This document shows, one piece after another, positions 1 through 11,954 of a stretch of DNA of 64,000 nucleotides. The first letter of the stretch is position 1. Every line of letters starts with the position of its first letter. The notes below the pieces were generated by a model. It saw nothing but the letters and a program-made list of their open reading frames with translations. It was not told where the DNA came from and did not search any database. Position numbers and translations under genes: made by a program. This stretch comes from Winogradskyella helgolandensis (GTDB lineage: Bacteria > Bacteroidota > Bacteroidia > Flavobacteriales > Flavobacteriaceae): contig NZ_JABFHO010000001.1 in NCBI RefSeq assembly GCF_013404085.1, positions 4,167,501 to 4,231,500 of the forward strand, in the 5' to 3' direction.

Positions 1-84
1 CTTCGGAATTTTCTCGCGTTCGTTTTTGTTTACTAAATTAGTTGCTTAAACACGCAACTAACCATACACAAACACGTCGTGCAT
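1..84 (+). repeat. Structured cassette-boundary repeat E1 (attC-like), left part cut by window edge
   Basis: First of seven related repeats. Only the right part is present: the 3' arm of hairpin A (GGAATTTTC), then hairpin B (TTAGTTGC/GCAACTAA), the outer-stem strand ATACAC and the terminal arm GTCGTGCAT at 76-84. That arm is complementary, with one mismatch, to ATGCACAAC at 751-759, the far end of the same gene unit. The C in GTC departs from the GTT seen in all other copies. Confidence 0.8.
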
Positions 85-103
85 AATTAAAAAAAAACGC
101 GAA

Positions 104-748
104 TTGAAAAAAATATTACTGTTTGGATTTATAATAGTATCTATCAATCTACACTCTCAAATAATGACTAGATACTTTATTGAAGGAGTTGAAATTGTAG
201 ATTACGTGACACTCGAAATTTGTGCTGATAGTATAAATGGAATAAACAATGTTGAATTGATTGCGAAAAAAACAACCCATAAAAATCAAGCTAATATTGA
301 CCAACTTGTAGATTACATTAAGAGTTTTGACTATCCTAAAGATGGTCCTTTAATTGGGAGATGCGGAAATCTAACCTTTTCATTTATGAATCCTGAATTT
401 GAAAACTTGAAATTAAATGAAAATGAAATAGAAGAATGCTCAAAATTTAGATTTGGGAATTATAGCTATCATCATATAAATCATCAAGACACAAAAATTA
501 AGCGGAGAAAAAAAATACAAAAAGAAAAAAGCTATAAAAGTAGACAGATTTATAGTATTAACTGGACATCGAATTCTACATATACTTTGACTTACAAAAG
601 AATGTCTGATGACAACCTAAAAAATTTAATTGGAGAAAAAATAGAGGTTGAAATTCTAAAACTTTTAGATAACGACGGATACGTTTACAGGTCGACAAGT
701 CCGAAAGGAATTGTTTACTATGGAGCGATATACAAATCAAAAAAATAA
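104..748 (+). CDS. Secreted hypothetical protein, cassette A cargo
   Basis: 214 residues, no family recognised. Residues 1-19 (MKKILLFGFIIVSINLHSQ) are a typical Flavobacteriia signal peptide with a lysine pair and a hydrophobic core, so the product is probably exported. This signal is why the TTG at 104 is taken as start; the next ATG lies inside the mature part. The rest is a mixed alpha/beta-looking protein with a very basic stretch near residues 127-150 (KIKRRKKIQKEK). It lies alone between repeats E1 and E2: its start is 20 nt after the E1 arm and its stop is 2 nt before the E2 arm, the tight packing expected of a single-gene cassette. Function unknown. Confidence 0.7.
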   Translation: MKKILLFGFIIVSINLHSQIMTRYFIEGVEIVDYVTLEICADSINGINNVELIAKKTTHKNQANIDQLVDYIKSFDYPKDGPLIGRCGNLTFSFMNPEFENLKLNENEIEECSKFRFGNYSYHHINHQDTKIKRRKKIQKEKSYKSRQIYSINWTSNSTYTLTYKRMSDDNLKNLIGEKIEVEILKLLDNDGYVYRSTSPKGIVYYGAIYKSKK

Positions 749-750
749 CT

Positions 751-890
751 ATGCACAACACCGTGTATAATTAATTGCTTTGTTCTTGCCTACTTGAGAA
801 TATTCCTGCGGAATATTCTCAGGTCCGTAAATGTTTATTAACTTAGTTGCTTAACCACGCAACTAACCATACACAATCACGTTAGCATAC
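751..890 (+). repeat. Structured cassette-boundary repeat E2 (attC-like)
   Basis: Full 140 bp copy. Order: left arm ATGCACAAC; outer-stem strand GTGTAT; hairpin A with arms GAGAATATTCC/GGAATATTCTC and a 3 nt loop; hairpin B TTAGTTGC/GCAACTAA; outer-stem partner ATACAC; right arm GTTAGCATAC (881-890). The left arm matches the start of the preceding gene unit. The right arm matches the end of the following one (GTATGCTAAC, 1698-1707). Confidence 0.85.
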
Positions 891-915
891 ATTTAAACCA
901 CTCATAATCTGACAA

Positions 916-1692
916 ATGCAAATACTTCTTTTTCTATTAATCTTTATAATTGGATTAGGTTCACTAATTACATCTTTCGTCGCTATTATTCAAATTTTGA
1001 GTAATGATTTTAAAGAATCGAAAATTCAATGGATTTTGATTTCAATGATTGCTTTTATTGGACCAATATTATGGTTAACAAAAGGTCGTAAACTAATAAT
1101 TAAAAATGGACAATCCCTAAGAAATGAAAATACCGAAAAAATAAGCCTGTCTGAACATTACACTCAGCTGATAAAGAATATTGGAACACCATTAAAAATC
1201 TTGACTTTAATAGCGTTAGCTCTTATTCTTTATGGATATTTAGCCAGAGCGTTAAACATCTACTTCTTTTGGGAAAGTAAATCCATCGGATTTGGATTAT
1301 TACTATTTGCAATTGCGAAATTCATACTTGATGACATAAATGCCAGACGAGAAAATAAAATGCACCGAATTGTTTTCTATATAGTATTCGGAATTTTATG
1401 TTTAACCATTTTTATAAAAGGTTTAATCGCGATAATTATCCCAAATTCCAGAGCATATAGTTCAGCTACTGAGCTTTTAAAAACTGATTCTGAATTAATA
1501 GCCGAAGTTGGAGAAATTACTTCTTTCTCTTATCTGCCTTCTGGGAGTATGGGAACTCATAAAGACAAATATGGAACAACTGGTAATGCAAATTTGACAT
1601 TAATAGTAAAAGGAAATAAAAAATACATTGAGAAGAATGTAGTCTTGGTAAAAGAATTAGAAGAAGATTGGAAAATAATATCTCTGAAATAA
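916..1692 (+). CDS. Membrane protein with a C-terminal Coa1-like region, cassette B cargo
   Basis: 258 residues. Hydrophobic segments lie near residues 1-28, 36-55, 92-112, 120-140 and 150-175. The first two, with WILISMIAFIGPILWL between them, resemble the PLDc_N-type two-helix module. The last ~75 residues (from about SATELLKTDSELIAEVGEIT) form a soluble domain resembling the Coa1/Tim21-like fold seen at the end of many small bacterial membrane proteins; that assignment is by pattern only. The gene sits alone between E2 and E3, with the start 26 nt after the E2 arm and the stop a few nt before the E3 arm. Role unknown; probably an inner-membrane protein. Confidence 0.75.
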   Translation: MQILLFLLIFIIGLGSLITSFVAIIQILSNDFKESKIQWILISMIAFIGPILWLTKGRKLIIKNGQSLRNENTEKISLSEHYTQLIKNIGTPLKILTLIALALILYGYLARALNIYFFWESKSIGFGLLLFAIAKFILDDINARRENKMHRIVFYIVFGILCLTIFIKGLIAIIIPNSRAYSSATELLKTDSELIAEVGEITSFSYLPSGSMGTHKDKYGTTGNANLTLIVKGNKKYIEKNVVLVKELEEDWKIISLK

Positions 1693-1697
1693 AAAAC

Positions 1698-1837
1698 GTA
1701 TGCTAACAACGTGTATAATTAATTGCTTTGGCAAGTGCTTATTTGGAAAATTCCTTCGGAATTTTCTCGCGTTCGTTTTTGTTTACTAAATTAGTTGCTT
1801 AAACACGCAACTAACCATACACAACAAAGTTGGCATT
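1698..1837 (+). repeat. Structured cassette-boundary repeat E3 (attC-like)
   Basis: 140 bp copy. Left arm GTATGCTAAC (1698-1707) is the exact reverse complement of the arm that opens the same unit (GTTAGCATAC, 881-890). Outer stem GTGTAT/ATACAC, hairpin A GAAAATTCC/GGAATTTTC, hairpin B TTAGTTGC/GCAACTAA. Right arm GTTGGCATT (1829-1837) opens the next unit. Confidence 0.85.
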
Positions 1838-1848
1838 AATTTGAGCGA

Positions 1849-2511
1849 ATGAACTTTTTAAGAAAAATCAGAGACATATTTGAAAGAAAAGTTTTTCTAA
1901 ATGAATTCTATGAAGACGTTCAAAATTTAGATGAAGTTTTACTTGAAAAGCGAATTGAAATTTTAAGAGATATTGCAAATCCTAAATTTGAAAAAATTGG
2001 TTTAAAAAACTGGAATGGAAAATATTTATGGTTTAGTGATTTTAACAAAGAAGGAATTAAGCACGTAGTTGAATACAATGTTTTGAAAGGATTTTCTGGT
2101 GCATTTACATTTGGAAATTGTTTCGATTTTGTTCCAACATTTTCTGGAAAAAAATTAATAAATCATAGAACTGAAAAGTCAACGAAAATTATTTATTTAA
2201 AAAAAACTGAAAGTTGGCAGAAAAGTATTGAAACTCAAAGACACATAAATCCTGATAAGGTTAGTACAATAAACGAGAAAAAGTTTAGAGAAAGTTTGGA
2301 AAAAGTGTTGAATAGAAACTTAATCAAAATTGAGAATTGGTTTAAAGAAAATGAAACAATTGAAAAAAATATTTATTCTTTAAAAAAAGATGCAGAAAAT
2401 CCGCCTTTTGAAATTGGAACAAGAATAATATCATTTGAATATATTTTAGCTTTTTTAAATAGAGAAAAATCTGAATTTAAAACCGCTGAATTTTGGTTAA
2501 ATGAGCATTAA
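1849..2511 (+). CDS. Hypothetical protein, cassette C cargo, possibly shortened by an in-frame stop
   Basis: 220 residues, soluble, charged, no family recognised with confidence. The central part (WNGKYLWFSDF to HRTEKSTKIIYL) has the look of small uncharacterised DUF4304-type proteins, but this is only a resemblance. The start is 11 nt after the E3 arm. After the TAA at 2509-2511 the same reading frame stays open for 19 further sense codons to a second TAA at 2569-2571 that touches the E4 arm. Since the other cassettes end within a few nt of the repeat, the longer frame may be ancestral and the first stop a nonsense mutation. Confidence 0.65.
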   Translation: MNFLRKIRDIFERKVFLNEFYEDVQNLDEVLLEKRIEILRDIANPKFEKIGLKNWNGKYLWFSDFNKEGIKHVVEYNVLKGFSGAFTFGNCFDFVPTFSGKKLINHRTEKSTKIIYLKKTESWQKSIETQRHINPDKVSTINEKKFRESLEKVLNRNLIKIENWFKENETIEKNIYSLKKDAENPPFEIGTRIISFEYILAFLNREKSEFKTAEFWLNEH

Positions 2512-2569
2512 AAAAAAGAAATAAATTCAGAATCAGAAATTGAAATTCTGAAGAAAAAAATAAAAAACT

Positions 2570-2707
2570 AATGCCAACACCATATATAATTTATTGCTGG
2601 CTTCTAACCTACTTGCGAAAATCCTCGCGGATTTTCTTTGTCGGTAATTATTTACTAAATTAGTTGCTTAAAACACGCAACAAACCATATATAAACACGT
2701 TGGCAAC
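2570..2707 (+). repeat. Structured cassette-boundary repeat E4 (attC-like), diverged copy
   Basis: 138 bp copy of the family with changed but still paired stems. The outer stem is ATATAT/ATATAT instead of GTGTAT/ATACAC. Hairpin A is GAAAATCC/GGATTTTC with loop TCGC. Hairpin B is TTAGTTGC/GCAACAAA with one mismatch. Left arm AATGCCAAC pairs with GTTGGCATT at 1829-1837; right arm GTTGGCAAC (2699-2707) opens the next unit. Confidence 0.85.
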
Positions 2708-2726
2708 AAGCTGAAAAAAATCCCGA

Positions 2727-3254
2727 ATGAATCAAAATCTGGAACAAATATTTGAATTAGAAACTGCCGAAAAATATAACGAGGCATATTCTGAATATCA
2801 AAAACTGATTTCGGAAAATAATCCGGAATTTGAAACGTGGAAATATTATTTCTTCTTTTTGTGGTCTATGCTTGAAGATGTTAATGGACAATTTAAGAAA
2901 GATATTGATTTACGAACTGAATTGGAATCTGAATTAAAAAATGGACTGAATAAATACTCGGAATTGGCTGAATTCAATTTTATTGCTGGATATACAATTT
3001 CAATTTTTCCTTACGAGTTTGGAGATTACGAGGAATTGGAAATTAAAGGGAAAGAAATGCTGAAAAAAGCGTTTGAATTGGAACAATCTAATCCGATTTA
3101 CAAAATGGTTTATTTAGGCTCAAAAAGTCTGAATGAAAAAGAGCAAAGTTTATATAAAAAGGCTTGTGCTGAATCAAAACTGATTTTAAAAACAAAATAT
3201 AACGGAAAAGGATTATTGAACGAATATTATAATCAAGTATTTAATCGTGAATAA
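2727..3254 (+). CDS. TPR-like helical protein, cassette D cargo
   Basis: 175 residues, acidic, no signal peptide or membrane segment. The pattern is alpha-helical with tetratricopeptide-like pairs: residues ~5-30 (AEKYNEAYSEYQKLISENN) and ~105-130 (EMLKKAFELEQSNPIYKMVYL). It is probably a protein-protein interaction module; no catalytic motif is visible. It lies alone between E4 and E5. Its leader, 23 bp starting with GTTGGCAACAAGCTG, is identical to that of the gene at 6020, although the two proteins are unrelated. Function unknown. Confidence 0.7.
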   Translation: MNQNLEQIFELETAEKYNEAYSEYQKLISENNPEFETWKYYFFFLWSMLEDVNGQFKKDIDLRTELESELKNGLNKYSELAEFNFIAGYTISIFPYEFGDYEELEIKGKEMLKKAFELEQSNPIYKMVYLGSKSLNEKEQSLYKKACAESKLILKTKYNGKGLLNEYYNQVFNRE

Positions 3255-3262
3255 AAAAGCCA

Positions 3263-3402
3263 GTTGCCAACACCGTGTATAATTAATTGCTTTGGCAAGT
3301 GCTTATTTGGAAAATTCCTTCGGAATTTTCTCTGGCAAGTTTTTGTTTACTAAATTAGTTGCTTAAACACGCAACTAACCATACACAACAACGTTGTACC
3401 CA
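3263..3402 (+). repeat. Structured cassette-boundary repeat E5 (attC-like)
   Basis: 140 bp copy. Left arm GTTGCCAAC (3263-3271) is the reverse complement of GTTGGCAAC at 2699-2707. Outer stem GTGTAT/ATACAC, hairpin A GAAAATTCC/GGAATTTTC, hairpin B TTAGTTGC/GCAACTAA. Right arm GTTGTACCCA (3393-3402) opens the large four-gene unit and pairs with TGGGTACAAC at 5872-5881. Confidence 0.85.
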
Positions 3403-3486
3403 ATTAACCCAAACCACAAATTCCCTACTCAAATTGAGCTAAATACTTTGAAATTCAAAAATATAAGTTAAAATATTTTTTTGTTT

Positions 3487-3507
3487 CTAATCGTTTGATT
3501 AGTTTTG
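3487..3507 (+). promoter_or_regulatory. TetR operator overlapping a Bacteroidota-type promoter
   Basis: CTAATC-GTTT-GATTAG (3487-3502) is a perfect 6 bp inverted repeat. Its right edge overlaps TAGTTTTG (3500-3507), which fits the Bacteroidota -7 element TAnnTTTG. A possible -33 TTG lies at 3481-3483, with slightly short spacing. The same palindrome recurs at 4107-4122. The placement predicts that the adjacent TetR protein represses its own promoter. Confidence 0.7.
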
Positions 3508-3524
3508 CAAAGTAATTTAGTTTT

Positions 3525-4088
3525 ATGCCTAGAGAAAAGAAATATAAGGAAGCTGAAGTAATAGAAAAGGCAATGGGTCTGTTCTGGAAAAACGGCTATA
3601 GAAATACATCATTAAGGATGCTATCTAAAGAAATGGGTATCAATCAATTTTCTATAAACGCTAGTTTTGGAAATAAACAAAAGCTTTTTCTAGAAAGCTT
3701 AAAATTGTATAGAAGCAAGTTGCAAAAGTTAATCAATGTATTTGAAAACTCTTCAAACGGCATTGAGAGTATTAAACACTTCTTCTATCAGTTTGCTGAA
3801 TTTGCTGACCAAAACAACTCAAAAAAAGGATGTTTAATGGTTAATACTATGTCAGAATTTGGTTTAGATGTAGATAAAAAAGTAGGTGTCATTATTTCAA
3901 ATTATGAGGAGCAATTAAGAACCTTGTTTAAACACAATCTGGAGTTAAATAGCACAAAGGACAACCAAACTATAGAAAGACACATAAATTATCTTGTTCT
4001 AGCATTAAGTGGTTTGGCTTTAGCAACAAAAATTCAAAATGAAATTACCATTAACGACTATATAGAAACCACATTTCAGCACTTATAA
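3525..4088 (+). CDS. TetR/AcrR family transcriptional regulator
   Basis: 187 residues. The N-terminal HTH spans about residues 8-55, with the TetR hallmark ...NGYRNTSLRMLSKEMGINQFSINASFGNKQKLFLESL, where an Asn-Ala pair replaces the more common Tyr-Asn/Tyr-His of helix 3. The rest is the ligand-binding helical domain. First gene of the four-gene unit between E5 and E6, with its own promoter and operator at 3487-3507. A second copy of the operator lies between it and the hydrolase gene, so it probably represses both itself and the downstream genes until an unknown small ligand binds. Confidence 0.88.
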   Translation: MPREKKYKEAEVIEKAMGLFWKNGYRNTSLRMLSKEMGINQFSINASFGNKQKLFLESLKLYRSKLQKLINVFENSSNGIESIKHFFYQFAEFADQNNSKKGCLMVNTMSEFGLDVDKKVGVIISNYEEQLRTLFKHNLELNSTKDNQTIERHINYLVLALSGLALATKIQNEITINDYIETTFQHL

Positions 4089-4106
4089 TATTTTTTTACC
4101 ATAAAA

Positions 4107-4122
4107 CTAATCAAATGATTAG
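4107..4122 (+). promoter_or_regulatory. Second TetR operator copy
   Basis: CTAATC-AAAT-GATTAG, the same inverted repeat as at 3487-3502 with a different 4 nt centre. It sits in the tetR-hydrolase gap, 22 nt before the hydrolase ATG at 4145. An upstream ATG at 4115 lies inside the palindrome, which argues against using it as the start. Confidence 0.7.
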
Positions 4123-4144
4123 AAATAAATTTAACAAAATACAA

Positions 4145-5128
4145 ATGAAAACAAAAAACACATTCAGAAAAACAATAGTACTAACCTTAATACTCGCACT
4201 AAGTATGGCTAATACTTCTCAAGCTCAAGAAATCTATAATAAAGATGAAACAAATCAAAAACAAAGACCATTTATAGTAGATAAAAAGGAATATCCTTTT
4301 AAAAGTAATTGGTTCACTAAAGACGAAATATCAATGCATTATATTGATGAAGGCGAAGGAATCCCGATTGTATTAACACATGGAAATCCTGATTGGTCAT
4401 TCTTAAATAGAAACATCATTAAAGAACTTTCAGGCGAAGCAAGAGTTATAGCTTATGATTTACCAGGATTTGGTTTTTCTGACACGCCAAAGGATTATGG
4501 TTTTACACCACAAGAACACGTTGAATGGATTAGTGCATTACTTTTTGAACATTTAAAATTAGAGAAATTCATAATTGTGGTTCAAGATTGGGGTGGACCA
4601 ACGGGTTTATCAGTAGCTACAAGTCATCCAGATAAAGTTTTAGGAGTTGTTATTAGTAATACTTGGGCTTGGAAACCAGAAGGGAAAGTGTTTGAATTGT
4701 CAATGATGATGAGATCTTCTGAAATGGAATCCAAAGTTATGGAAGAAAACTTTTTTGTAACAGGGATTATGCGAGGTTCTATCAAAAAGGAATCTAGCAG
4801 TAACAAAGCAATTATGGATGCCTATGAAATGCCATTCCCAACAAAGGAATCTAGAAAAGGTACAGCAGTTTTTCCACAACAGATTACATTGGCATCGGAT
4901 TGGCTAGGAGAATTAGAAAGCAAATTATCTACGCTACAGGAGAAGCCAGTAGAGCTTATTTTTGGATTAAAAGATGATGCCCTCGCTTCGCAAGATATTC
5001 AAGATAAATGGCGTTCGTATTTCCCGAAAGCACCTGTACAATTGTTGCCTGATGCTGGCCATTTTACACAAGAAGATAGTCCAGAGAGTTATGTGTTTTC
5101 ACTAAGACGACTGCTTAAGAATTTATAA
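4145..5128 (+). CDS. Exported alpha/beta hydrolase, haloalkane dehalogenase/epoxide hydrolase type
   Basis: 327 residues from the ATG at 4145, chosen because it directly precedes the signal peptide (MKTKNTFRKTIVLTLILALS ending ...TSQAQ). Motifs in order: oxyanion HGNPDWS (about 79-85), nucleophile elbow VVQDWGG with Asp (about 148), acid region FGLKDDAL, and catalytic His in PDAGHFTQ (about 306). An Asp nucleophile followed by Trp, together with HGNP, is characteristic of haloalkane dehalogenases and fits epoxide hydrolases less well; the substrate cannot be read from sequence. It acts in the periplasm or outside the cell. Controlled by the adjacent TetR operator and followed at 7 nt by the TfoX-like gene. 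Confidence 0.85.
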   Translation: MKTKNTFRKTIVLTLILALSMANTSQAQEIYNKDETNQKQRPFIVDKKEYPFKSNWFTKDEISMHYIDEGEGIPIVLTHGNPDWSFLNRNIIKELSGEARVIAYDLPGFGFSDTPKDYGFTPQEHVEWISALLFEHLKLEKFIIVVQDWGGPTGLSVATSHPDKVLGVVISNTWAWKPEGKVFELSMMMRSSEMESKVMEENFFVTGIMRGSIKKESSSNKAIMDAYEMPFPTKESRKGTAVFPQQITLASDWLGELESKLSTLQEKPVELIFGLKDDALASQDIQDKWRSYFPKAPVQLLPDAGHFTQEDSPESYVFSLRRLLKNL

Positions 5129-5135
5129 CAAAAAA

Positions 5136-5465
5136 ATGGAACCTTCAACAGATTTTAAAGATTTTATTTTTGACCAATTACAAAGTTGGAGAAGAGTACG
5201 AATCAAAAGAATGTTTGGTTGTGTTGGTTTGTATGCAGACGATTTAATGTTTGGAATTATAGCCAAAGAAGTCATTTTTTTTAAAGTAGATAAAAGTAAT
5301 ATTTCTAATTATTTAGAAGCTGATTCTCAACCTTTAAAGTTATTCAAAAATGAAAGTAAAGTTCTGTCATTTTATGAAGTTCCTATTGAAGTTTTAGAAG
5401 ATGCTAATCAATTTGTCCTTTGGGCAGAAGAATCATTAAATATTCAAAAAAATAAATCAAAATGA
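5136..5465 (+). CDS. TfoX N-terminal domain protein
   Basis: 109 residues. It consists of a TfoX_N domain: the core RMFGCVGLYADDLMFGIIAKEVIFFKVD (residues ~23-50) is the family signature. Stand-alone TfoX_N proteins are common in small regulated operons and their biochemical role is unclear. The C-terminal TfoX half known from competence regulators is missing, so a competence role should not be assumed. It lies 7 nt after the hydrolase gene and overlaps the next gene by 4 nt (ATGA), consistent with cotranslation in the TetR-controlled unit. Confidence 0.85.
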   Translation: MEPSTDFKDFIFDQLQSWRRVRIKRMFGCVGLYADDLMFGIIAKEVIFFKVDKSNISNYLEADSQPLKLFKNESKVLSFYEVPIEVLEDANQFVLWAEESLNIQKNKSK

Positions 5466-5866
5466 AAAAATCAACAAACATATTTAACAAAATAGTATTA
5501 ATAGCTGGTATTTTAAATTTTCCAATTGGACTTGGAACTGTGTATCAAGCAGTTTCAACAAAAACAGGTGAAGATTTAATTCACAGTGCAGTAGTTGGCT
5601 TATTTATAATGTTCGCAGGAGCAGCAATAATTTGGGCTACTAAAAAACTAAACACAAGAGCTTCGCTAATTGTTTGGAATGGTTTAGTTCGCTTAATTAA
5701 CGTGTTTATTGTAGCCTATGCAGCTTTGGGTGATGGAGTTTCGCAAATGACATTAACCATAACAGGAATGGATTTAATGCTAGCTATAATCTTTACGATA
5801 GGAACGGTAAAAGTTACTGAAATTCCATTTTCAAAATTAATAGTAGGAAAAACAAATAATTTATAA
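5462..5866 (+). CDS. Small four-helix membrane protein
   Basis: 134 residues with four predicted membrane segments, about residues 8-28, 40-60, 66-90 and 98-118. No charged catalytic motif is visible and no family is recognised. The start codon overlaps the TfoX stop (ATGA at 5462-5465). It is the last gene of the four-gene unit: its stop lies 5 nt before the E6 arm, so the whole operon is closed exactly by the repeat. The link to an exported hydrolase and a TetR repressor suggests a role in uptake of or response to the same compound, but this is inference. Confidence 0.75.
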   Translation: MKKSTNIFNKIVLIAGILNFPIGLGTVYQAVSTKTGEDLIHSAVVGLFIMFAGAAIIWATKKLNTRASLIVWNGLVRLINVFIVAYAALGDGVSQMTLTITGMDLMLAIIFTIGTVKVTEIPFSKLIVGKTNNL

Positions 5867-5871
5867 TTAAC

Positions 5872-6007
5872 TGGGTACAACAACGTATATAATTAATGGC
5901 TAGTTTTAGCTTGCTTACGAAAATCTTTGCAGATTTTCTATTCGGTTTTTATTTGCTAAATTACGTGCTAAACCACGCCACTAATCATATACAAACACGT
6001 TGGCAAC
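5872..6007 (+). repeat. Structured cassette-boundary repeat E6 (attC-like), most diverged full copy
   Basis: 136 bp copy. Left arm TGGGTACAAC is the exact complement of the arm at 3393-3402. The outer stem is GTATAT/ATATAC, a third base-paired version. Hairpin A is GAAAATCT/AGATTTTC with loop TTGC. Hairpin B is altered (around TTACGTGC and GCCACTAA) and pairs less well. Right arm GTTGGCAAC (5999-6007). Confidence 0.85.
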
Positions 6008-6019
6008 AAGCTGAAAAAA

Positions 6020-6709
6020 ATGACGATAAACATCAAAAAAACTCTTGAAATTGGAAAAGTCCGAGAACTTTTAAATGAAAACGAGACTTTATTGTTTGTT
6101 GTGACTGATGAGAAATTAACTAGAAGTTATGTATTAGAATTACAAAAAGAATTGCCTAATTATGTCGTGACTCGAATTGAATGGCTGAATAAACTGAATA
6201 TTGTTCCAAGTATATCAACAAAAGTAGTTTTGGAAAATATACTTGAATTTCATAATTGTATTGAATTGTTTGATAAAACAGCTCATTCTCTAATGAATGA
6301 AATGGCTGAAACGTTCGATATTAATCTGAATAACTCTAATGAGATTTACGAATTAAAAACCAAAAGAAGCGAAAATCAAAGAGGAGAAATAAATAATGAA
6401 TGGAAATATCATTTTCACGGAAAAGGTTGCTCATTTACAAATACAAATACCGAACAATTTTTAGATGTTCAAATTAACAACGGAATTGAATTTGGAGAAT
6501 TAGATACTTATTATTTAATGAAATTTATTCAAACAACGGAATCTCTGAAAAAAGCAAGTCAAATTTTAAACAATAAGACTGAAAATATGCGCAAAGTAAT
6601 CGAGACATTATGGAGTTCTGATTATCTAATAGAATTACCAGATGGAATAAATAATGAATTAATATTAAACCGGAACAAAAAGCCAATTGCCAACACCGTG
6701 TATAATTAA
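6020..6709 (+). CDS. Hypothetical protein, cassette F cargo (HGxGCxF-type, possibly DUF6896-like)
   Basis: 229 residues, soluble. Residues ~125-165 contain WKYHFHGKGCSFTN followed by a region ending FGELDTYYLMKF. This resembles the small W-x-Y-x-F-H-G-x-G-C-x-F domain of uncharacterised DUF6896-type proteins often found near toxin/immunity genes; the match is by eye only. The start is 12 nt after the E6 arm. The reading frame runs into repeat E7 and takes its TAA (6707-6709) from within the repeat, so the last residues (ANTVYN) are encoded by repeat DNA. Its 23 bp leader is identical to that of the gene at 2727. Confidence 0.65.
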   Translation: MTINIKKTLEIGKVRELLNENETLLFVVTDEKLTRSYVLELQKELPNYVVTRIEWLNKLNIVPSISTKVVLENILEFHNCIELFDKTAHSLMNEMAETFDINLNNSNEIYELKTKRSENQRGEINNEWKYHFHGKGCSFTNTNTEQFLDVQINNGIEFGELDTYYLMKFIQTTESLKKASQILNNKTENMRKVIETLWSSDYLIELPDGINNELILNRNKKPIANTVYN

Positions 6710-6824
6710 TTGCTTTGTTCTTCTCTACTTGCGAATATTCCTGCGGAATATTCACGGGTTCGTAAATGTTTACTAACTTAGTTGCTTAACCACGCAACTA
6801 ACCATACACAATCACGTTGGCAAC
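6686..6824 (+). repeat. Structured cassette-boundary repeat E7 (attC-like)
   Basis: 139 bp copy. Left arm ATTGCCAAC pairs with GTTGGCAAC at 5999-6007, with one end mismatch. Outer stem GTGTAT/ATACAC, hairpin A GAATATTCC/GGAATATTC (same subtype as E2), hairpin B TTAGTTGC/GCAACTAA. Right arm GTTGGCAAC (6816-6824) opens a further unit whose closing partner is not found before the integrative element; a degraded repeat lies beyond that element at 12374. Confidence 0.85.
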
Positions 6825-6923
6825 AAGCTTGACCCGTCCTGAAACATGGCTACAAGTTAAAATTAAATCAGTATCTAAAATAATTAATCAAGCTATTCTC
6901 TTGGTTGCTAAACACCCCTTTTT

Positions 6924-7000
6924 CGGTTGCTTTTCGGTTGCTTTTCGGTTGCTTTTCGGTTGCTTTTCGGTTGCTTTTCGGTTGCTTTTCGGTTGCTATG
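6924..7000 (+). repeat. Tandem 11 bp repeat (CGGTTGCTTTT, about 6.6 copies)
   Basis: Six complete head-to-tail copies starting at 6924, 6935, 6946, 6957, 6968 and 6979, plus a seventh partial copy at 6990. They lie in the gene-free stretch 6825-7124 after E7. An open frame runs through the repeat but has no convincing start and its sequence is only the repeat read in frame. Nothing else recognisable is in this stretch. Confidence 0.9.
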
Positions 7001-7124
7001 GTTGTCATTTTTGGTCACAACCAGCAAAAAAACAAACTAAAAACCTATAAATGAGATAATTAACAAATTAAAACCAAACAACAACCAGTTTCAATTTTGG
7101 TTACTACTTAATTGTTAAAAAAAC

Positions 7125-7643
7125 TCAACTACTATTATAATCATTTAAAAAATTAGAGAACTGACTTCTAAGATTAAATTCAACTTCGATGCAACTCCAA
7201 TATTGACCAAATAAAATATTTCTATTTTGATCATCTTTTATAGATTCAATTAACTTACTTACTTCTATATTATTTACATCTTTTGTTATTAAACAAGGAT
7301 AGGATTTACTCAAATTTAAATTATTAAATAATTCAGACTGCTCTTTATTATTTAGATCTGAACAAAACGTATTAATATGATAATCTATTGGCATATTTAA
7401 ATACTTATGCAGTTCCCTTATAGCTATCTGATCGTAAATGGATGTTTTATATATATTTACAAAGTTCATAACAGATAAGATATAAAGTTTAAATGAAAGC
7501 TGCTGCCTATCAAGTTGTTTTATCTCCTTTTTTATTATATAATCCGCTAAAATATTATAAGCAGTAATTCTAAAGTCATCTTCAGGAAGTCCTTTTTGCT
7601 CAATCATATTTTGAATTATATTCATTGCTCTTTCTATGGTCAT
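7125..7643 (-). CDS. Hypothetical protein of the integrative element
   Basis: 172 residues, soluble, no family recognised. Mostly helical and rich in Ile, Asn and Lys like its neighbours. It is the last gene of the element, separated by about 215 bp from the DUF3987 gene; that gap holds no gene and contains no clear terminator. Nothing in the sequence shows a function. Confidence 0.55.
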   Translation of the reverse strand: MTIERAMNIIQNMIEQKGLPEDDFRITAYNILADYIIKKEIKQLDRQQLSFKLYILSVMNFVNIYKTSIYDQIAIRELHKYLNMPIDYHINTFCSDLNNKEQSELFNNLNLSKSYPCLITKDVNNIEVSKLIESIKDDQNRNILFGQYWSCIEVEFNLRSQFSNFLNDYNSS

Positions 7644-7859
7644 TACTATTTTGTTTTATGAAACCGGAAACTAACAGGTGAATTAAGTAAAAACACCACG
7701 TATACAAGCTATAAGCGTGAAACAGATTATTTTAAAAAGTTTCATACTATTTACATATTGATTCTTTAAAGAAACTTTTCAATTGATTCACGAGTAATTA
7801 CACTCCTTGGATTTAAAAGCATTAACAAAGATTCAACATCAAGTTTCTAGTTTCCTCTT

Positions 7860-9213
7860 TTACTTATTGTAAGTTTTACTATTCCAAATTTTAGATATAT
7901 AACCAGCAGAATAACCAGTTATATTAGCCACATCTTTTGCTTGGGCTTTATTTAATTTTGCAGAATCTATTACTTTCCTAAGAAAGTCCTGATTCTTCTC
8001 AGGATTATTGATATAATTTAAGGTTAACTGAAAGTTTGTATAATAAAAGTCATTAATCTGAATTGCTAATTCTACAGTATCAAGAGTTACTTTATCTTGA
8101 AAACTATCATTGAAAGATTTTTTTATTAAATGGATTAGTAAGACTAATTTATGAATGCTTATCATCATTTTAGAAATATACCCTCTAATATTCTCAGGTA
8201 GTTTTTTTTTTGGAGTTCAACAAAATCTGAGAGTATTCATGCAATTTCTCATCAACCCCTTTATCTAGAATAACATTACATTCTCTCTTTTCATTTTCAA
8301 TGTGTTTTCTATAATTGATCAAGCCTTTTAATAGAACATGATAATTATTTAAAATTTCTTCTGATAATTTTTCTTTTGATATTTTAGAGTTATCTACGAG
8401 CAGATTAGAGAATAACATCCTATCTATGAACCCACTTTCTAAATTACCATTAGCAAAATTTTTTTTTAAAAATTGGTGTTGTGTAGAGCCTATAAGTGTG
8501 GGGTAAGAATTTTCTAACCTATAACTATCTGTTGTTTTTCTTCCTATATCAATGAATAAATTAGTATAACCCTGCAACAAAAAATTACGCCATGCAGGCC
8601 CTTCGTTACCTCTTTCATTTGCCATTTTTTGTACTAAAAAATAAATCTCATCAAGATTCACACCTATTGAATAGGGATTATGAAAATGAACGTGCTTCGC
8701 TGCTTCTATTGTAGCGTCTTGAAGTAGAAACTGTTTACGCACAGGCTCATCTTTATTAGAAGTAATTTCTTGTTTTTTATGATCTTTAAGCTCCTTACGA
8801 TACGATTTGTAATTTTCGCTATCAGACTTATTTAGTGGTTTACAAGCTATATTTATTGCTTCTGATTTAGTATCTCCCCTACTTCCAATGATTGTAAAGT
8901 ATAGGTTCGCATAGTTAGTATACCCCATGCAATTTATTTTAAAAGCTAAACCAGTTCCGCTGCTGAAAGCAAATAATATTGAACTTAAAAGATACTCTTT
9001 TGGTATTCTTTTATAAACGAAAGCCTCATTAATAAGTGCTCTTATATCACTTGGCATTGAACTAACAATTCCATCTAATTGCTGAATTGCAGTATCTTTA
9101 ATATTTGATAATTTAGTGTTCTTGGATTCCTGGTTAATTAAATTAATTTTATCAACTTTCATATTGCTAGAGTTATTATTTTGACAAAAAATTCTATTAC
9201 ATGTATAATGCAT
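7860..9213 (-). pseudogene. DUF3987 family protein, frameshifted in an A10 run
   Basis: Two frames together make one DUF3987-type protein of about 445 residues. The upstream part (9213-8194) has a P-loop-like GSRGDTKSEAI (about residues 110-120) and an acidic VNLDEI (Walker-B-like, about 185). The downstream part (to 7860) continues as ...LPENIRGYISKMMISIHKLVLLIHLI, the usual C-terminal helical region. The frames meet at ten A residues (T10 in the plus strand near 8201-8211); removing one A joins them without loss. The family is found with integrases and primases in Bacteroidota islands and is thought to be replication-associated. It could be a true pseudogene, a transcriptional-slippage gene or a homopolymer error. 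Confidence 0.75.
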
Positions 9214-9226
9214 TAAGTATTCTTTT

Positions 9227-9514
9227 TTATTTTCGTTTGTATTTTAGTGATTTAACCTCTTTTAGAGCGTCATCTAAATCAACGCGTTTAATAAATACTC
9301 TTCGCCCAATTTTAAAAGCTGGCAGAACTCCTTTTTTTATGTAATTATGAACAGTAAGATTTGTAACTCCTAACTCATCAGAAACTTCTTGTATAGATAG
9401 TTTTGAATTGTTATTGATTGCAGTAAATGGTGCTAGTTTTCGGTCTATTAAATTTTCAAAATCTTCAAGTAGCTCTGATTTAGAAAAATTTTGGACTTGG
9501 ATTAAATGTGACAT
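9227..9514 (-). CDS. Excisionase-like helix-turn-helix protein
   Basis: 95 residues. From about residue 40, SIQEVSDELGVTNLTVHNYIKKGVLPAFKIGRRVFIKRVDLDDAL is the winged helix of the MerR-like excisionase (HTH_17) family, used by Bacteroidota islands as Xis or as a regulator of the element's genes. It lies 13 nt upstream of the DUF3987 gene and just downstream of a large palindrome (9571-9606), which is a candidate binding site. The gene looks intact. Confidence 0.85.
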   Translation of the reverse strand: MSHLIQVQNFSKSELLEDFENLIDRKLAPFTAINNNSKLSIQEVSDELGVTNLTVHNYIKKGVLPAFKIGRRVFIKRVDLDDALKEVKSLKYKRK

Positions 9515-9570
9515 ACGATATTGTTTTAATTAAACGATACCGCAAGTTTAGGATAATATTAAAAAGAGTT

Positions 9571-9606
9571 GTTTGACCGTGTTTGACTGGTCAAACACGG
9601 TCAAAC
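9571..9606. repeat. Perfect 17 bp-arm palindrome built of GTTTGAC units
   Basis: Left arm GTTTGACCGTGTTTGAC (9571-9587), centre TG, right arm its exact reverse complement (9590-9606). Each arm contains two GTTTGAC words 10 bp apart, so four half-sites are arranged as two nested inverted pairs. It lies in the 105 bp gap upstream of the xis-like gene. It could be an operator, an origin-like cruciform or a terminator; on the minus strand it is followed after four nt by a T-rich stretch. Confidence 0.9.
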
Positions 9607-9619
9607 AGTAAAGATTATT

Positions 9620-10683
9620 TTATAAGAAGTCTGTATATTTCAAATATTTATCTAATTGATTTGACTTCAACGCATAATCATAGTTTTGTTTAGTTATTTT
9701 TGTGCCGAAACACTCATTTAATGCATAAACTATATCCGTTTTATCGCAAAATTTCAAATACTCTTTATTACTTAGCTGAATCCCTATCGAACAAATAAAC
9801 GTTTCAGCCCCTCTTTTTTTAAATTCATCTGGAATCAATATTGAATATTCATCTTGAATTAGTTGTATAATTCCTTTCTCTAGTAATTTGTCAATAATTA
9901 CACTAAAATTTGTTTTTGGGGTTTCTAGTAGATTTTCTAAGCTCAGCTTAGCTTTAATTTCCTTTTTATTACACTTCTTAGAAGTCTCTTGTAAGCTAAG
10001 TATATGATTTTTTATCGTCTCTAAAATAACTTTAGCCTCATAAAATGAGCTCCATTCCTCTAAGAGATCAAAAAAACCGGATAAACCATCATCAGCAAGA
10101 TTTATTTTGTTTTCAATAGCTAAATTCATAAAAGATTTTGGCTTGTTTTTAAGATAAAGCCTGAGGAAATTTGGTGAGTACGATATATTCAATTTCACAT
10201 ATTCATACCATGACATTACTCCATTCACACCAGTACTTGAAATTAAATTATCATCATAGATGGTATACCACTCTGATTTTGGGTAGTACTCATTGTACTT
10301 CTCTTTTAAAAAAGACACTTTTTCGTTTATATCAAAAAAAGATCTCATTTCAAATAAAATTTGTGTAATCACTAATTGTGGATCAGATAATGCAGCAGTA
10401 ACATGAAATTCTAGAATCTCATACACTTCCATTACAAAATCTTTAGTGAAGTCAAAATCTTTACCCTTATAAATTAATGGAAAATGATAGAAGTTGCATT
10501 CTTCAAACAGCTTTTCTAAATTGCATTCTTTTTCTTCAATTGATGAAAATGAAACCTCATAAATATCTTTAGGAACAGAGGTTTTTAACACATTTTTTTT
10601 ACTAAAAAATTCAAGGTTTCTTCATTAAAGCAACTAAAATCACAATTTTGAGCAATACCAAGATATTCAGTCCTTTTTATCAT
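9620..10683 (-). pseudogene. Hypothetical protein of the integrative element, frameshifted in an A8 run
   Basis: The long frame (10591-9620, 323 codons) opens only with a GTG. Upstream, an ATG at 10683-10681 overlaps the integrase stop (ATGA) and encodes about 30 residues (MIKRTEYLGIAQNCDFSCFN...) before a stop. Adding one base to the eight A residues at 10600-10593 joins the two into a single protein of about 354 residues. The ATGA coupling makes 10683 the likely true start. No domain recognised; it is helical, with repeated acidic clusters. Usual companions are the integrase upstream and the xis-like gene downstream. Confidence 0.6.
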
Positions 10684-11954
10684 GCTTTTTTAAGTTTAGG
10701 TAATTCCATACTTCCAAATGCCAAATTAATTGCATCAACTTTAGCTTCAGTATCTACTTTGTAATAACTATTAAACGTTTTCAAGTCACGATGGCCTGTC
10801 ATTTTCATAATAGTTTTATCTGCAATTCCTTTTTTCTTCATTATTGTTATGAAAGTTCGCCGAGCACTATGAGTAGAAATTCTATCATAAAATGGTTTAA
10901 CGATAACTTCTTTTTGCTTATTCTTATTTCTTGTATACTCTACATCAAAATCAAATTCAGCACTTTTAAATACCTTTTTTATTAATTCATTTTGCTTTTG
11001 ATTTGTTATAAGTGGTAATAAATTATCATACTTTTTTAAAATGTACTTAGTAATATCAAATAATGGAATTTCTCTAGCATCCTTAGTTACGTCTTTATCC
11101 TCTTTTATCAAAAGCACACCATCTCTTATCGTTCTATTATTTATTAATCTAAGTTCTCCAAACCGCAATCCTGTTAAACATTGAAACACAAATACATCTC
11201 TTACTTTTTCTAACGATTTCGATTTTGTATCAAATTCAAAAATAGTTTTTACTTGGTCCAAATTTAACGCTACCTCTTGAGTAATTACACGATCTGGTTT
11301 TTTAAAACCTCTAAAGGCATCATTATAAGTATACTTCTCCTTTATTGCCCAAAACATAAAAGTTTTAAACAACCCAATATTTCTCGCAAATGTATTGGTA
11401 CCATGATCTGAAGTCGTATAACAATAATCCGTGAAATCAGTATAAAATTTTTCATTTATATTACTGAAAGTTAAATTATATTTTGTGCTTTTATCAAACT
11501 GAACTAAGTGATTTTTGATGTTATTATATCGCTTAATAGTGGAAGGTTTCCATTCTCTTCTTTTCACTTTTTCTTCAATAAAACTATCATACGCTTCATA
11601 AAAAACACTTTTACTTGGATCTATTTTTTTAAATTCTCTATTAAAATTTTCTTTCAATATTTTTGAAGTTAAATCCTAATTAATTCTAGAGTACACACCA
11701 ATCAATTCTTCAAATTTATTCGAATATCTATCTAATTGCTGTTTAATTGATGATGCTTCTTTCAACCTATTGGATCCTCTTAATTTTGGAGCTCTATTCT
11801 CAAAACTCCAACCAATAGGAGCTATTCTTTCTCCAGTTGAGTAAACGAACTTCTTTTTCTCTTTATTAAAATGACAAGTAAATAAAATTAATGATGGTTT
11901 AGAACCTTTTTCTGCTTGAGGTTCTTTTAAGTAAAAAGAATGTTTCATAATCAT
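10680..11954 (-). pseudogene. Tyrosine recombinase (phage-integrase family) with an internal amber codon
   Basis: Same-frame protein of about 424 residues if the TAG at codon 93 (11678-11676) is ignored. Codons 1-92 are the arm-binding N-terminal domain; after the stop the frame continues DLTSKILKENFN into the SAM-like core-binding domain and the catalytic domain. Catalytic signatures are present: Arg in GLRFGELRLI, HSARR with His and Arg, TGHRD, and the Tyr nucleophile in FNSYYKV. It is a Bacteroidota island integrase, not an IntI. Codon usage and similarity run through the stop, so it is a recent nonsense mutation or read through. Translation could restart at the TTG near 11657, leaving the arm-binding domain off. 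Confidence 0.85.

Follow-up and report, generated by a model that had tools for sequence, protein, structure and literature searches.

Integrons are the closest described systems. Their integrase, IntI, has a specific domain around patch III, which the text available from PMC9668308 presents as unique to IntI, as defining, and as necessary for integron recombination; the accessible part of PMC8138268 likewise calls the IntI insert essential for integron function. The attC sites linked to IntI carry two extrahelical bases according to an excerpt of PMC3053210, and the available portion of PMC9024848 gives Salinibacter ruber as an example of an integron in the Bacteroidetes, a group than which the GTDB phylum may be wider. 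Here, we analyze a 64,000-nucleotide stretch of Winogradskyella helgolandensis (the window, C1:4167501-4231500; the genome comprises 4.6 Mb in two contigs, C1 and C2, and is 99.97% complete). A repeat array at C1:4157080-4174318, with 21 copies in all, reaches into the first 6.8 kb of the window, where its final seven sites and six complete cassettes are located. On the strength of the sequence comparisons below, we consider it very probable that these repeats are attC-like sites of a chromosomal integron-type system of the Flavobacteriaceae that uses a recombinase other than IntI.

Repeats, cassettes and their ends

In the window, seven repeat copies in one orientation alternate with six units, one of which (window 3394-5999) holds four open reading frames (ORFs), and the main ORF or ORFs of every unit are co-directional with the repeats. 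The coordinates of sites and ORFs bear out the layout that a preliminary description, made from the window's sequence alone, had proposed: same-orientation repeats, single-gene units except for one with four, and genes that follow the direction of the repeats. The array is confirmed as real and far beyond chance. Allowing at most two mismatches, we counted 114 genomic occurrences of an 18-nt repeat core and none of a reversed-pattern control, and a profile built from the window copies finds 162 matches, some partial, in the stretches fetched around the core occurrences. They comprise 44 at C2:2-43146, 30 at C1:4329933-4355341, the 21 of the window array, 20 at about 2.22-2.25 Mb, 15 at about 2.77-2.79 Mb, 11 at about 4.29 Mb, and smaller groups. 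A covariance model applied to 20 control stretches of the same genome (400 kb) gave one marginal match. Because C1 ends and C2 begins inside an array, the arrays at the end of C1 and the start of C2 are probably a single array of about 70 kb, split by the assembly.

The 142 units between successive sites have a median length of 827 bp. Their longest ORF runs with the array in 136 units and against it in 3, and the remaining 3 have no ORF of at least 60 amino acids (aa). We scanned 92 of these 136 cassette ORFs and found 56 Pfam families, of which 5 were matched by more than one protein; since nearly all families were hit by single proteins, the cargo is mutually unrelated, as the preliminary description had held. 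For the same 92 ORFs, PADLOC returned candidate matches to defence families, such as AbiJ, PD-T4-6, Old, and GajA, which are given here as names only. The orientation of the sites follows their position. The 49 copies up to 2.79 Mb are without exception in minus orientation, and the 113 copies located from 3.59 Mb upward or on C2 are all in plus orientation. The dnaA gene lies at 3.518 Mb, and a replication-strand bias of site orientation is possible; GC skew in 39 stretches was too noisy for placing the terminus.

The two ends of a cassette are complementary to each other. For each unit, we compared the seven bases that follow its initial GTT with the reverse complement of those that precede AAC at the other end, using 140 consecutive site pairs whose ends could be scored and whose spacing did not exceed 5 kb. 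On average 6.1 of 7 positions matched, and 83 pairs were perfect. The arms within one repeat reached only 2.70 of 7, and shuffled partners had a mean of 2.57 and a maximum of 2.95 in 2000 shuffles. Complementarity extends to about 14 bases, past a mismatch at position 11 (2% identity). In relatives, 71 pairs from 18 of 80 loci gave a mean of 5.85, versus a shuffle maximum of 3.04. The complementarity thus belongs to the cassette, which fits a unit that was formerly a circle closed at G|TT. A simple dispersed intergenic family without matching arms, which the preliminary description had set against its own proposal, does not agree with arms that match across cassettes.

In the circle, these complementary arms flank AAC and GTT cores. 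GTT was present in 145 of 157 scored 3' ends and AAC in all 153 scored 5' ends, the latter count being selected by the profile, which starts at AAC. Exact RYYYAAC cores are rare (5/153), as are exact GTTRRRY cassette starts (5/145). The remark in the preliminary description that the cores do not fit the standard consensus is therefore literally correct, but it does not separate these arrays from those linked to IntI: in IntI-linked arrays of other Bacteroidota, only 3 of 20 starts match GTTRRRY exactly. Because such arrays also rarely fit, the mismatch is non-discriminating, and we rejected it as a mark of novelty after this control.

Duplicated cassettes offer an indirect view of excision and integration, in that identical cassettes with G|TT ends occur at different places. 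Among the 142 own cassettes, six pairs are related (at least 85% identity over at least 75% of the shorter), and four of these match over their full length (690-1257 nt, 99.6-100%). In the four full-length duplicates, for example C2:1991 and C2:12891, a different cassette follows immediately after G|TT; on the left, where the flank is itself a site of this family, the boundary is accordingly less clear-cut. The other two pairs consist of window cassettes 4 and 6 and their relatives, whose attC sites are different or diverged. Cassette 4 recurs, with a different site, in the C1:2.22-2.25 Mb array (98.3% over 591 nt), and cassette 6 has a relative in the C2 array (92.4% over 821 nt).

A comparison across genomes gave 14 rows, of which 7 were dropped as overlapping fetches of one genome (L130/L188, L131/L184); in 6 of the 7 true cross-genome pairs, the first bases after G|TT are the same. 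Cassette 3 has an 89% identical copy of the same length in another genome (L189), with other neighbours and the same G|TT ends, and another own cassette is 94.6% identical to one in Winogradskyella psychrotolerans. The gene order fixed in all relatives that the preliminary description had named as a counter-indication was not what we found, as shared cassettes have different neighbours in other genomes. In five stretches of a same-genus genome (G226), no cassette was common with the window genome, a comparison that does not amount to a strain-level test.

We folded the 121 sites with exact GTT at both ends in circular form, using DNA parameters. The bottom strand was the more stable in 119 of them (mean -27.0 versus -22.0 kcal/mol), compared with 34 of 121 control fragments from cassette interiors. 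In a bottom-strand alignment of 39 sites (38 of 41 selected, three of odd length having been dropped, plus one window site), the inner stem has 17 pairs with 95.6% of cells paired, and 8 pairs show changes on both sides. None of 500 shuffles reached this paired percentage or the covariation score, and 4 reached 8 two-sided pairs; slid structures pair at most 45.7%. The computation thus predicts a bottom-strand folding like that of attC sites. G.T pairs are found at 17-130 and 23-125 in all 39 sites and would correspond to A.C mismatches on the top strand; such invariant wobbles argue for selection on bottom-strand DNA and against a hairpin in transcript RNA. The consensus inner stem is without a bulged base, and four folds show a short bulge between core and inner stem.

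The preliminary description had further stated that the array lacks a canonical attC. This is right for the inner stem, with its missing bulge and its G.T wobbles, but not for the AAC/GTT cores, the G|TT junction, and the folded bottom strand, which are attC-like. Its central proposal, an integron-like array or cluster of attC sites without a local integrase, gains support from the complementary ends, the duplicates bounded by G|TT, the bottom-strand folding, and the occurrence of cassettes in other neighbourhoods.

The recombinase and its arrays

The genome's best match to the integron-integrase model is a tyrosine recombinase of 375 aa (C1:4327165-4328292). It lies directly before the array at C1:4.33 Mb, co-directional with it and 153 kb to the right of the window array. 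The preliminary description had looked for a recombinase gene to the left of the window; on that side, the 1 Mb next to the array contains none of the genome's eight Phage_integrase matches, and the likely enzyme instead heads another array on the right. With no recombinase of this type adjoining it, the window array is a cluster without an array-type recombinase of its own, probably served by the enzyme 153 kb away.

The recombinase passes NCBIfam NF040815 (recomb_XerA_Arch; 239.5 bits, cut-off 220), a family described as site-specific tyrosine recombinase/integron integrase, and falls below the integron model TIGR02249 (193.4 bits versus a cut-off of 265). Its best solved relatives are 4a8e and 5hxy, which are XerA-like, and IntI4 (2a3v) aligns as two blocks around a gap; the nearest named recombinases come from Winogradskyella and Psychroserpens. 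Two classes of these array recombinases, A and B, are distinguished here. The region of the IntI insert has 24-25 residues in all 33 class A and B recombinases, versus 66 in all 12 IntI. In a quick tree of 52 rows, the 12 IntI form one group (SH-like approximate likelihood-ratio support, SH-aLRT, 100), 16 class A proteins another (100), and class B with the recombinase of locus L244 a third (85). Classes A and B jointly have a support of only 44, and a grouping of IntI with both classes to the exclusion of Xer has a p value of 0.317 in the approximately unbiased test (p-AU). Both classes carry an extra N-terminal domain of about 85-100 residues without a Pfam family. Judged by its sequence, the recombinase is not an IntI: the insert is absent, it falls outside the IntI clade, and it has the additional domain.

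HARP, a domain of fork-remodelling helicases, was considered for the N-terminal domain and retained as a hint only, as 1 of 26 sequences matched, at 23.0 bits and below the cut-off of 25; a scan of 60 genomes gave one weak match in a short broken frame, and L244 gave none. PF22823 appears in precomputed labels and was absent from all scans run here. Among solved structures, the best chain for the domain, at an E value of 0.012, was a T-cell receptor.

The linkage between recombinase and array recurs in other genomes. From a scan of named genomes, we kept the best 80 of 408 loci, with recombinases 59-88% identical. The profile derived from our own genome only found sites downstream in 41 of the 80 loci, none on the opposite strand there, and upstream in 2. 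The covariance model found same-orientation sites downstream in 50 of 80 loci and upstream matches in 4, counts that, unlike those of the own-genome profile, are partly circular, since 19 of these loci contribute 32 of the 39 rows of the model. Where 2 kb or more of downstream sequence is available, the model detects sites in 42 of 48 loci, and with at least 9 kb in 25 of 26. Contigs end at most 300 bp downstream in 17 of 80 loci and upstream in none, as would be expected of repeats that interrupt an assembly. An array also follows 17 of 20 divergent recombinases, which were hand-picked with partial knowledge of sites on the same contig; all 113 matches there have the same orientation. The three without an array are L198 and L202, which lack the N-terminal domain, and L199, which has it. 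In L201, the array is present and the recombinase gene is broken.

Next to the recombinase gene, sequence features suggest a putative attI with a G|TT junction. In most class A loci, the stop codon is followed by a short AT-rich palindrome, a few bases, and the GTT of the first cassette. A palindrome with perfect arms of at least 8 within 75 nt was found in 51 of 77 loci (three of the 80 were skipped as short or broken), versus 1.8% of mononucleotide shuffles, and its sequence varies between species. Divergent loci have, judged by eye, ATATAACNAGTT in 10 of 20 cases and a close variant in 5 of 20 in place of the palindrome. In our own genome, the attI-like GTT (L025:10332) marks the beginning of the first cassette, whose two ends are complementary to each other. 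Also by eye, this cassette comes first in Aquimarina longa (L085) too, preceded there by an attI-like sequence that differs.

The preliminary description had proposed a covariance-model search of Bacteroidota. The site model matches 131 of 149 Flavobacteriaceae genomes, each from a different genus, and in the phylum-wide sample 66 of 395. The recombinase profile (E at most 1e-60) matches 100 of the 149 family genomes, including proteins without the N-terminal domain, so that some genomes with sites lack a close match to the recombinase. In another family, a recombinase of the N-terminal-domain type precedes the array of locus L244.

Several mobile contexts were noted in addition. On a Chryseobacterium plasmid (NZ_CP041688.1, L250:4956-10582), a family recombinase is followed by a ATATAAACAAGTT attI-like site and three same-orientation site matches. 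A plasmid of Tenacibaculum finnmarkense (CP116296.1, L251:669-6126) has two strong site-model matches, each adjoining a gene pair for an IS91-family transposase and another tyrosine recombinase, as if such an element targets the sites. A predicted viral contig of IMG/VR (L248:4439-7674) has four site-model matches; a phage collection searched with one window site gave no match. On an Acinetobacter indicus plasmid (NZ_CP041297.1, L249:4043-6064), tet(X3) is immediately preceded by a shortened recombinase relative (53.6% over query residues 146-374), and between the two are a palindrome like that of class A attI and a GTT sequence resembling a cassette start; the stretch fetched there has no site-model match. 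An unexplained xerD gene beside tet(X) genes is mentioned in the available part of PMC7473080, and the A. indicus relative suggests that this gene may be a remnant of such a platform.

The array in the window

All features of the array lie on the plus strand, and positions are those of the window. Site 1 (1..78, core (-48)-78; 106.6 bits in the profile) is cut by the window start and reads GTC instead of GTT at 76-78. Cassette 1 (77..881) has an ORF at 104-748 with a TTG start (214 aa), and cassette 2 (882..1829), beyond site 2 (757..883, 115.3 bits), one at 916-1692 (258 aa); neither has a Pfam match, and the ends of both are complementary at 7 of 7 positions. Site 3 (1705..1831, 97.0 bits) is followed by cassette 3 (1830..2699; ORF 1849-2511; 7/7), and site 4 (2576..2701, 98.0 bits) by cassette 4 (2700..3393; ORF 2727-3254; 6/7). 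After site 5 (3269..3395, 100.4 bits) comes cassette 5 (3394..5999), whose ends, GTTGTACCC at the start and GGGTACAAC at the end, are complementary at 7 of 7 positions across 2.6 kb. Its four ORFs encode a TetR_N regulator (3525-4088), an alpha/beta hydrolase (4115-5128), a TfoX_N protein (5136-5465), all three assigned by Pfam, and a small protein (5462-5866) whose sole Pfam match, MerC, is below threshold. Site 6 (5879..6001, 88.9 bits) precedes cassette 6 (6000..6816; ORF 6020-6709, DUF6896; 5/7), and site 7 (6692..6818, 119.3 bits) is the final site of the array.

Directly beyond this last site lies a tandem array with an 11-bp unit, TTTTCGGTTGC (6909-7008). Minus-strand ORFs occupy 7125-11657 straight after the array end and look like a separate integrative element; they include a tyrosine recombinase of another type (10680-11657; Phage_integrase and Phage_int_SAM_5), 3.9 kb past the array end. 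Elsewhere in the genome, integrase-type genes were seen at C2:44989-45786 and C2:69092-69904, 2 kb and 26 kb past the end of the C2 array, and at C1:1008842-1009360, 6 kb from a lone site at C1:1015118.

Alternative readings and comparison with known systems

Integron-type G|TT junctions, AAC/GTT cores, and bottom-strand folding would also be found in an ordinary integron, or a cluster of attC sites lacking an integrase (CALIN), whose canonical IntI had been overlooked, and 105 of the 395 phylum genomes do contain an IntI that exceeds the cut-off. None of these 105 belongs to the family of the window, though, and none of the 108 with a match at E values up to 1e-45 does either; no protein of this nearly complete genome exceeds the IntI cut-off, the recombinase heading the 4.33-Mb array included, and that enzyme has neither the insert nor a place within the IntI group. 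We therefore regard an overlooked IntI as very improbable. Another possibility is that the attC-like sites are real but are acted on by a different recombinase, XerC/D-like or borne by an element, the adjacent one being a passenger. The genome's further Phage_integrase genes speak for it, three of the seven lying 2-6 kb from a site, one of these three being the gene past the window array, as do the short related recombinases without N-terminal domain in L198 and L202. These two have no array, however; the flanks of three other own recombinase genes (L203-L208) contain no sites, and the array linkage of the N-terminal-domain type recurs across many genomes in strict orientation, which makes a different enzyme unlikely. 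Least credible of all is homologous recombination between dispersed repeats, of a repetitive extragenic palindromic (REP)-like or terminator-like kind, without any site-specific enzyme. The copies are similar enough for such exchange and most sit behind genes, but it would yield neither complementary ends specific to each cassette nor G|TT junctions. A role in RNA would favour pairing in the transcript strand, whereas the conserved wobbles favour the bottom strand, and an Rfam scan of window 1-7200 gave no match at E values up to 1.

A number of observations weigh against an integron-type system with a non-IntI recombinase. Recombination is deduced from sequence and none was observed. To the partial circularity of the model counts and the hand-picking of the divergent recombinases can be added that the model finds no site in 6 of the 48 loci that have 2 kb or more of downstream sequence; a de novo scan of these found chains of more than one link in L062 and L095 and none in L078, L079, L084, and L109. 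L199 combines the N-terminal domain with an attI-like site and has no array, and of the four recombinase genes of our own genome that remain besides the three with site-free flanks, three are 2-6 kb from a site. In the family, 49 of 149 genomes are without a recombinase match at the above threshold, and only 18 are without sites. Sites also occur in genomes of other families, some of them with IntI, and five such 20-kb stretches (L228-L232) have neither kind of recombinase nearby. At most four end positions match in 15 of 140 own pairs and 12 of 71 pairs of relatives, which we read as lost sites or decay. Finally, the accessible part of PMC8138268 reports that the IntI insert is not fully conserved in an integron-like subgroup, so that an insert-free enzyme would not be unheard of at the level of sequence classes.

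For the integron-type system that we prefer, the following working can be envisaged. Each cassette begins with the TT of a GTT and ends with the G of the following one, and its complementary ends would give the excised circle a long hairpin. The 375-aa XerA-like recombinase with its N-terminal domain may bind the folded bottom strand, cut beside G|TT, and insert incoming cassettes at the attI behind its own gene; in trans, it may also act on distant arrays such as that of the window. Such integron-like working is well supported by the sequences, although under a definition through IntI the system would not count as an integron. If the enzyme lacks the IntI domain yet produces the same junction, an origin of integrons from Xer recombinases becomes directly testable. 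More tentatively, and with rather less than even confidence, we propose a second, non-IntI lineage of cassette-capturing recombinases, in which a Xer-like enzyme acquired an N-terminal domain, faintly similar to HARP, that recognises folded single-stranded sites. This lineage could have originated independently of IntI or before the latter obtained its insert, and it may drive one of the largest gene-exchange systems of Bacteroidota. The data suggest that standard integron definitions would miss a large gene-exchange system of the Flavobacteriaceae. Among the best matches listed from open-licence PMC papers, to which the search extended and not to preprints or subscription papers, we found no description of these arrays.

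The recombinase shares core-binding and catalytic domains with XerA, XerC, and XerD, but differs from them in its linkage to cassette arrays and its extra N-terminal domain, features that would set it apart from a housekeeping dif-type Xer without array linkage. The genome's own two Xer-like genes encode separate 310-aa proteins, and their flanks are without sites. The integrase of Treponema integrons is treated as IntI in the available part of PMC3607928, whereas the flavobacterial enzyme belongs to another lineage.

With chromosomal integrons of the IntI type, the flavobacterial arrays have in common cassettes of one orientation and mostly one gene, complementary ends, the G|TT boundary, a bottom-strand hairpin, and an attI beside a tyrosine recombinase. 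Of ten IntI loci (L233-L241, L246) subjected to a de novo scan, L233-L236 have chains of 4-6 cassettes, always 5' of intI, L237 has a chain of 2 located 3' of the gene, and no chain was found in the remaining five; across all ten, the site model produced a single weak match, in L241. The flavobacterial array, in contrast to those of L233-L236, lies downstream of its recombinase and is co-directional with it. The recombinase itself is without the IntI insert, falls outside the IntI clade, and has the additional N-terminal domain. Its putative attI has a palindrome (class A) or ATATAACNAGTT (class B), and the inner stem of its sites does without the extrahelical bases of IntI-linked attC sites, the asymmetry lying instead in the bulge between core and stem.

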